Below the pieces are notes generated by a model, which did not search any database, was not told the DNA's origin, and worked only from the letters and a program-made list of their open reading frames with translations. From Flavobacteriaceae bacterium (GTDB lineage Bacteria; Bacteroidota; Bacteroidia; Flavobacteriales; Flavobacteriaceae), in NCBI GenBank assembly GCA_947378465.1, contig CANCJZ010000006.1, positions 1-33,870 of the forward strand: 33,870 nucleotides of DNA, in the 5' to 3' direction. This document shows, piece by piece, positions 9,962-11,744 of the stretch. Both the position numbers and the translations under genes were made by a program. The stretch's first letter is position 1; each line of letters opens with the position of its first letter.

Positions 9962-9996
9962 AAAAAGCAGTAAACTTAGGTTTGCTGCTTTTTTTT
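9962..9996 (+). terminator. Rho-independent terminator of the galactose operon
   Basis: AAGCAG-T-AAAC / GTTT-G-CTGCTT hairpin followed by a T-run. Confidence 0.8.
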
Positions 9997-10084: not shown

Positions 10085-10570
10085 ATGTCTAATCAAATGC
10101 AATATATTAAATCTTTAGAGGATGAAATTGATTGGAAAGTAATAGATCAACTCCATACAGCAACAGTTAATTTTTCTTCTACAAGTTTGGAACTTAAAAA
10201 GCTTTATTTTGTTCTTGTTGGAATTGCTATTCCATTATTAATTAAATTAGCAGGAAATAAGCTAGATGTTTCACTTTTTATTGCGGTGTATGTTTTTACA
10301 ATTTCCTTTTGGTTTTTAGATGGATTTACTTACTATTATCAAGAAAAATTAAGAGAAAAAATGGATTTTCATTTTAATTTAATAAAAGAAAGAAATATTG
10401 AACACTTAATTCTTCCCAATAAATTAAAACAAGATTTCACCATTGATCACAATAGAAATAATAAGGGACGATTATACCGTTCGGCTACTAATTATTCTGT
10501 GATTTTTTATTTATTGGTTTTAGTTATAAATACTATAGGTTTAGCGTTGTTTTTGTTAAAATTAATCTAA
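10085..10570 (+). CDS. Small integral membrane protein (about 3 TM segments) with cytoplasmic middle region, unknown function
   Basis: ATG start; hydrophobic stretches LYFVLVGIAIPLLIKLA, LFIAVYVFTISFWFLDGF and C-terminal YSVIFYLLVLVINTIGLALFLLKLI; overlaps the next CDS by TAATG-type junction. Confidence 0.75.
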   Translation: MSNQMQYIKSLEDEIDWKVIDQLHTATVNFSSTSLELKKLYFVLVGIAIPLLIKLAGNKLDVSLFIAVYVFTISFWFLDGFTYYYQEKLREKMDFHFNLIKERNIEHLILPNKLKQDFTIDHNRNNKGRLYRSATNYSVIFYLLVLVINTIGLALFLLKLI

Positions 10571-10869
10571 TGAAATACTTTGTAAGTTATACTACCCGCG
10601 ATAAAGAAATCACCTCTGATTTACTGAAACAATTTTCTAAAGAATTAGAGAAAAAAGGGGAGGTGTTTATTGACTTACTTCATAATGATTCTATAGACAA
10701 ACAGAGTAGAGTGCTCAAAGAGTTAGATAGCAGTGATGTGTTGATTTTAATTGAAACTAATAGTGTGTATCAATCAGAATGGGTAGTACTTGAAATAGAA
10801 CAAGCCAATGCGATTCCTATTCCTATTCAAATAATGAACCTTGATCAGTTAAGAAAATTTAAAGTGTAG
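10570..10869 (+). CDS. Minimal TIR-domain protein
   Basis: MKYFVSYTTRDKEITSDLLKQFSKELEKKG (TIR box1-like F-SY-xxD), SSDVLILIETNSVYQSEWVVLEIEQANAIPIPI (S-x-W-V-x-x-E motif with the position of the TIR catalytic Glu). Confidence 0.75.
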   Translation: MKYFVSYTTRDKEITSDLLKQFSKELEKKGEVFIDLLHNDSIDKQSRVLKELDSSDVLILIETNSVYQSEWVVLEIEQANAIPIPIQIMNLDQLRKFKV

Positions 10870-10955
10870 TTTTAACTTGACATTGTTATTATCAATAAGT
10901 TTTTTGAGTTTACCCAATATTTGTCCATTTTCCTAAAAGTGTTTCCAAGGTCTTC

Positions 10956-11249
10956 TTGAGTAGTGGTTCAGTCTTCTTGAGTAGTGGTTCAGTCTACTTG
11001 GATAGTGGTTCAGTCTACTTGGGTAGTGGCTCAGTCTACTTGAGTAGTGGCTCAGTCTACTTGAGTAGTGGCTCAGTCTACTTGAGTAGTGGCTCGGTCT
11101 ACTTGAGTAGTGGCTCAGTCTACTTGGGTAGTGGCTCAGTCTATTTGAGTAGTGGCTCGGTCTACTTGGGTAGTGGCTCAGTCTATTTGAGTAGTGGCTC
11201 GGTCTACTTGAGTAGTGGCTCGGTCTATAGAAGCAGTGGTATAGTCTAC
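10956..11249 (+). repeat. Minisatellite: 14 tandem copies of a 21-bp unit, consensus TTGAGTAGTGGCTCAGTCTAC
   Basis: Direct reading; ORF track 10956..11252 shows the matching (L/R)(S/G/D)SG(S/I)V(Y/F) heptads; 14 x 21 = 294 bp exactly. Confidence 0.95.
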
Positions 11250-11440: not shown

Positions 11441-11744
11441 AAAAACCTACAACCTATATAACCACAAAAAGATTAAAACCTACAACCTATATAACCACAA
11501 AGATTAGAACCTACAACCTATATAACCACAAAGATTAGAACCTACAACCATATAACTACAAAGATTAAAACCTACAACCTATATAACCACAAAGATTAAA
11601 ACCTACAACCTATTTAACCATAAAGGTCATAACCTATAACCTATATAACCACAAAGATTAGAACCTATAACCTATATAACCACAAAGATTAAAACCTACA
11701 ACCTACAACCTAAAAAAACCTACAACCTAAAATTAAACCTAAAA
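11441..11744 (-). repeat. Tandem array of ~31-bp units (plus-strand GATTAAAACCTACAACCTATATAACCACAAA), ending in short ACCTACAACCT repeats that abut the rpoN stop
   Basis: About 8-9 near-identical units, no unique spacers; on the minus strand it reads as GGTTGTAGGTT downstream of rpoN. Confidence 0.92.

Follow-up and report, generated by a model that had tools for sequence, protein, structure and literature searches.

A minimal TIR protein and a three-TM membrane protein encoded as a candidate two-gene defence module in Flavobacteriaceae

In this study, sequence comparison showed that a gene for a minimal TIR protein and the membrane-protein gene in front of it are coupled and inherited together in a 1:1 ratio, that both are under purifying selection and that they often lie near defence genes. 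That the module exists as an obligate two-gene unit is near certain, and a role of the pair in phage defence is likely. An earlier sequence-only reading had suggested a candidate two-gene defence module; this reading is supported here, with a function that we infer. More tentatively, and with slightly less than even confidence, the pair may represent a distinct, undescribed anti-phage system, in which a free-standing TIR protein of ~100 aa drives a three-TM hairpin effector directly, without a recognised ligand-binding domain. It would then belong to a wider group that swaps the same membrane module between TIR, Roc-COR and AAA triggers.

The gene pair, its surroundings and its relatives

The window, a stretch of 33,870 nucleotides from the genome of a Flavobacteriaceae bacterium, carries both genes on its forward (+) strand. 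The gene for a 161-aa membrane protein with three TM segments, a distant relative of PDC-M50A, is located at 10085..10570 (+), and the minimal TIR gene (99 aa) at 10570..10869 (+). The stop of the former and the start of the latter overlap by 1 base in a TAATG junction at 10568..10572 (+), which confirms the two overlapping ORFs that had been described there. The pair measures ~0.8 kb. Its G+C content is 24-28%, compared with 38-40% in the flanking DNA, so that it forms an A+T-rich stretch. Upstream lies a galactose operon (galK, galT and an SSS symporter gene, named from sequence), and on the other side is rpoN-asnS on the opposite strand. A terminator-like hairpin (9962..9993, +) was found between the symporter gene and the pair, although the scan would yield ~0.8 sites of this kind by chance. 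The pair is unlikely to be a member of the galactose operon, given the hairpin, the shift in base composition and the unrelated positions of the pair in other genomes. The unit contains no third gene: repeats and then rpoN follow downstream, the hairpin and the symporter gene precede it, and no further defence gene adjoins the pair in the window itself. In 29 relatives the rpoN flank is variable, and neither the pair nor the symporter gene was found within 1.5 kb of it. The location between a sugar operon and rpoN had thus been noted correctly, but it is incidental.

Two tandem arrays were observed just downstream of the pair (10950-11227 and 11442-11705), consisting of a 21-mer (GTCTACTTGAGTAGTGGCTCA) repeated 13 times and a 31-mer repeated 8.5 times. 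Arrays of the 21-mer were also found on two other contigs of the same genome (C72 and C152); because the 21-mer is a genome-wide repeat, it is not part of the pair.

Besides the window, 13 further complete pairs were found, giving 14 pairs in 13 loci. The carriers are Flavobacterium, Terrimonas, Siphonobacter, Winogradskyella (two tandem pairs), Paenibacillus, a UBP6 MAG and two MAGs labelled Planctomycetaceae and Saccharibacteria, which are suspected to be misbinned. Gene order is identical in 14/14 complete pairs (a hit cut by a contig end, L025, was left out of this count), and every complete locus is a pair, as the proposed module had led one to expect. In most pairs the TIR start overlaps the membrane-protein stop, and the commonest junction is a 4-base overlap of the ATGA type (7 of the 14). 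When the membrane protein was used as the query, 6 of 400 same-genus genomes gave a match, with a TIR gene directly behind it in each. The TIR-profile search, which is taken to cover the same 400 genomes (identical sampling settings), scored the same six at E 4e-42 to 3.4e-35; the next match was 5e-10 or weaker, and the weaker matches that were checked were TIR domains of larger or different proteins. A contig scan with the single membrane-protein sequence gave no match, and the alignment query gave 11 loci.

Both genes are under purifying selection, with dN/dS of ~0.08-0.2 where estimable, well below 1. Their distance matrices correlate (r = 0.70, 0/20,000 permutations) in a small sample of 14 pairs, which is too few for a coevolution analysis. 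Mean identity is 51% for the membrane protein versus 41% for the TIR protein, indicating that the TIR protein varies more. In one locus (L021) duplication involved whole pairs, and the 1:1 ratio was kept. Chance is ruled out because of the 13 further pairs, the low dN/dS in both genes and the correlated distances; likewise, a chance ORF or a pseudogene is rejected by dN/dS and co-occurrence. Relatives of the membrane protein were absent from IMG/VR, INPHARED and PLSDB, and a phage- or plasmid-borne pair was rejected on this ground.

The TIR protein and its membrane partner

The second protein had been called TIR-like for its FVSYTTRDK and SEWVVLE motifs, and both the family models and the predicted structure bear this out. 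The AlphaFold model (14 sequences; pLDDT 93.1, pTM 0.84) is predicted to have the fold of the TIR domain superfamily, in the order strand-helix-strand-helix-strand-helix-strand-helix, that is, a four-stranded core without the last strand and helix. Structure prediction had been named as a test of the reading, and the PDB matches of the model were the SPARTA TIR, plant TIRs, ThsB and SARM1, each at a probability of 1.00 and with TMq 0.58-0.74; their E of only ~1e-3 is expected for 99 residues. Residues invariant in 14/14 members include Phe4, Tyr7, Thr8, Gln45, Ser69, Trp71, Val72 and Glu75. Glu75, in the SxWxxxE motif SEWVVLE, corresponds in the alignment to the Glu of the 9m0n TIR motif SEWVKKE, and the Glu suggested from the sequence thus occupies the predicted catalytic position of TIR NADases in all members. 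We take it to be equivalent to SARM1 E642.

Pfam TIR_2 matched the window TIR with E 1.6e-5 and 25.8 bits, just under the 28-bit cut-off, and the ThsB models of PADLOC matched it at 2.6e-8. ThsB_TIR (PF08937) reached 18.8 bits against a cut-off of 21.2. The NCBIfam model ThcB4 (NF058526) matched at 1.3e-9, with 37.4 bits against a cut-off of 220, and it was the best NCBIfam match in 14/14 TIRs, with E down to 2.8e-12. By these models, whose matches are always below the curated cut-offs where such exist, the TIR protein appears to sit near the Thoeris TIRs. Across the 14 members its length is 99-130 aa. The domain had been called minimal or truncated; minimal is the appropriate word, and truncation is rejected because the whole family is equally short. 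ThsB proteins often have extensions whose proposed roles are phage sensing and the prevention of self-association (PMC11204291). The window TIR has none of the extensions found in many ThsB sensors, nor a regulatory or sensing domain; therefore, its partner or another factor would have to take on both roles.

For the first protein, about three TM segments had been noted. Hydrophobic segments were found at residues ~39-58, 60-82 and 137-160, and all three lie in helices of the AlphaFold model (pLDDT 81), which consists of a long hairpin (H11-56 and H62-103) plus H137-157. The layout is thus a cytosolic helix (residues 11-38), TM1, TM2, a second cytosolic helix (82-104), a variable linker and TM3 (137-158); the orientation, with the hairpin ends in the cytosol, is suggested by charge. 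Conservation is highest in the cytosolic helices (0.82 and 0.76), versus 0.51 in TM3 and 0.48 in the linker, the lowest values of the structured part. Pfam gave no match for the membrane protein, including SLATT, and macro, SLOG and SAVED domains were not found. There was no match in the PDB, and a Foldseek search with the model returned no meaningful match. A SLATT identity was rejected for want of a Pfam match.

A relationship was found with PDC-M50, a candidate system of PADLOC-DB 2.0 that consists of the membrane protein PDC-M50A and the TIR protein PDC-M50B; the PDC labels of PADLOC are themselves predictions. The PDC-M50A model (PDLC04686) matched 6/6 membrane proteins of the pair weakly (best E 1.5e-5), and hhalign against genuine PDC-M50A sequences gave 97% probability with E 8.5e-11. 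The pattern FWxLD...QE..xR is common to both groups, and comparison of the sequences thus indicates that they are homologous. For the TIR proteins, the PDC-M50B model did not match that of the window and matched weakly in 3/6 relatives (up to 2.6e-5); the profile-profile comparison (87.6%, E 3.5e-6) is as expected for any TIR.

The PDC-M50A membrane module appears, from its gene neighbourhoods, beside several trigger-like proteins. In G589 it has a TIR protein on one side and a ThsB protein on the other, and in G939 two ThsB-type TIRs follow it. In G445 (C17, L098:397-2980), a protein of 699 aa that carries COR-A and COR-B domains (Roc-COR) directly precedes a PDC-M50A-family membrane protein, and these two genes may form a separate two-gene defence unit. 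PDC-M50A adjoins an AAA_15 ATPase in G596 and a GH25 protein in G580.

Genomic company and putative mode of action

The pair has no fixed genomic location. The neighbourhood of defence genes that had been looked for was found in several carriers. In Paenibacillus, Avs2 lies directly downstream of the pair; in the UBP6 MAG, ThsB (6.8e-74) and ThsA-macro (1.4e-74) lie directly upstream; in Terrimonas, PDC-M34B (7.5e-67) lies directly upstream; and two ThsB-type TIRs precede the pair in a further locus (L016). In G438 (L011:2700-12000), the pair fills one slot in an array of short genes. This array contains ~10 attC-like elements of 130-160 bases, starting with TAACAGCCGTT and ending with CGTTA, and its slots hold single genes or operons (Fic-like, toxin-antitoxin-like or unknown) as well as the pair. 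In the search for an integron integrase, tyrosine recombinases matched but none above the curated IntI cut-off; hence the array is called only integron-like.

Other TIR and membrane-protein genes were observed in the same genome and in others. The window's genome has a second TIR/membrane system (L035, G000:C257:1-4251), in which two ThsB-type TIRs, a TPR-S-domain protein and a SLATT_3 + SLATT_1 membrane protein stand in a row; it runs off the contig end. A same-genus (Flavobacterium) genome encodes a TIR-like domain fused to the Pfam 8xMP octameric membrane domain (L047:566-1878). The 8xMP part of this fusion has three TM segments, and the gene adjoins ThsB-type TIR genes; homology of the 8xMP part to the membrane protein of the pair is not supported, there being no detectable sequence match. 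In G015 (L036:323-5613), genes for an AAA/OLD-like ATPase and a UvrD-like helicase, recognised by eye only, lie directly upstream of a ThsB and TM-macro-like ThsA pair.

In the direction of action that we prefer, to which we give a little less than an even chance, the TIR protein is the trigger and the membrane protein the effector of a Thoeris-like abortive-infection module. Upon phage infection the bare TIR protein would self-associate and process NAD+ by means of Glu75. Either the signal so produced or the TIR cluster as such would act on the three-TM protein at its conserved cytosolic helical hairpin; this protein would oligomerise and breach or depolarise the inner membrane, and the cell would die before phage maturation. 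Elsewhere the membrane module is found with other triggers, as would be expected of an effector, and it is better conserved than the TIR; both points favour this direction, as does a precedent in type II Thoeris, in which the TM-macro ThsA is clustered by TIR-made His-ADPR or related nucleotides and the membrane is perturbed (PMC11204291, PMC12847820). Counting against it, no nucleotide-binding domain was recognised in the membrane protein, which also has no PDB match, and the TIR lacks the extensions by which many ThsB proteins may sense phage. The 1:1 pairing, kept even on duplication, is explained by a physical complex as well as by a diffusible signal, if not better.

The same module may also work in reverse, with the membrane protein as a sensor and scaffold that holds the bare TIR and clusters it upon infection, and the TIR killing by NAD+ depletion within a stoichiometric membrane complex. 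A TIR that lacks a regulatory or sensing domain of its own would suit this arrangement, as would the strict 1:1 pairing, the overlapping genes, the duplication of whole pairs, and a cytosolic hairpin that is the most conserved surface. The Flavobacterium relative that joins a TIR-like domain and a three-TM 8xMP in one polypeptide also points this way, but its 8xMP part is not detectably homologous to the membrane protein of the pair. Moreover, the membrane protein is the less variable of the two, unlike a fast-evolving sensor, and M50A-family proteins with non-TIR partners fit an effector better than a TIR scaffold. The reversed arrangement is the chief alternative, though less likely than the preferred direction.

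Two further explanations place the pair outside this scheme. It would be improbable, though conceivable from its small overlapping genes, sporadic distribution and presence in a cassette array in one genome, that the pair is another kind of two-gene module, either a toxin-antitoxin pair or a phage-unrelated signalling unit in which one protein restrains the other; its recurring neighbours are phage-defence genes, the nearest TIR families are Thoeris proteins, and neither protein resembles a known antitoxin. That the pair is a functionless remnant of a larger TIR system, left by decay or truncation, is scarcely credible. As a TIR domain the protein is indeed short, the last strand and helix being absent, but the shared shortness of all members, the low dN/dS, the intact frames and the invariant key residues contradict decay.

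If confirmed, the pair would be among the smallest TIR immune systems (~0.8 kb). It would offer a tractable setting for the control of a TIR without a sensor or regulatory domain, and a tractable case of TIR activity passed to a membrane protein in which no nucleotide-binding domain is known. The PDC-M50A membrane family, which in this analysis looks like a module that can be exchanged among several defence-type triggers, would at the same time come into view for the first time.

Comparison with known systems

Among the small membrane proteins of nucleotide-signalling and TIR systems, those of the SLATT, S-4TM and 8xMP types resemble the partner in being helical TM proteins with cytosolic helices that adjoin, or are fused to, TIR-like domains; however, the membrane protein of the pair matches neither the SLATT nor the 8xMP models. 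In type II Thoeris (ThsB and TM-macro ThsA), a TIR gene likewise stands beside a membrane-protein gene, and abortive infection through membrane damage is the outcome proposed for the pair as well. In contrast to that system, the membrane protein of the pair lacks a macro domain, its TIR is bare and scores below the cut-off of the ThsB family, and one pair (L024) adjoins a separate type II Thoeris. More generally, the partner has neither the SIR2-SLOG nor the TM-macro domain of the Thoeris I/II effectors.

The ThcB4 TIR of Thoeris (NF058526) belongs to type III; the caspase type is named 'type IV' in one paper. ThcB4 is the closest NCBIfam family of the TIR domain throughout the 14 members, but it is a protein of ~375-390 aa with an extra N-terminal domain, whereas the window TIR has 99 aa, and no caspase-like gene adjoins the window pair.

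PDC-M50 shares with the pair a homologous three-TM membrane protein encoded next to a TIR. However, each true M50 locus has two genes for TIR or ThsB-type proteins of 120-210 aa, the membrane proteins are only ~19% identical, and the acidic motif conserved at the N-terminus (EDEIDWK) is longer in that of the pair. Since the pair has no Thoeris I/II partner, differs from ThcB4 in these respects and encodes a PDC-M50A homologue, it is regarded not as a member of Thoeris but as a variant related to PDC-M50, which, judging from its genes, probably works like a Thoeris system.
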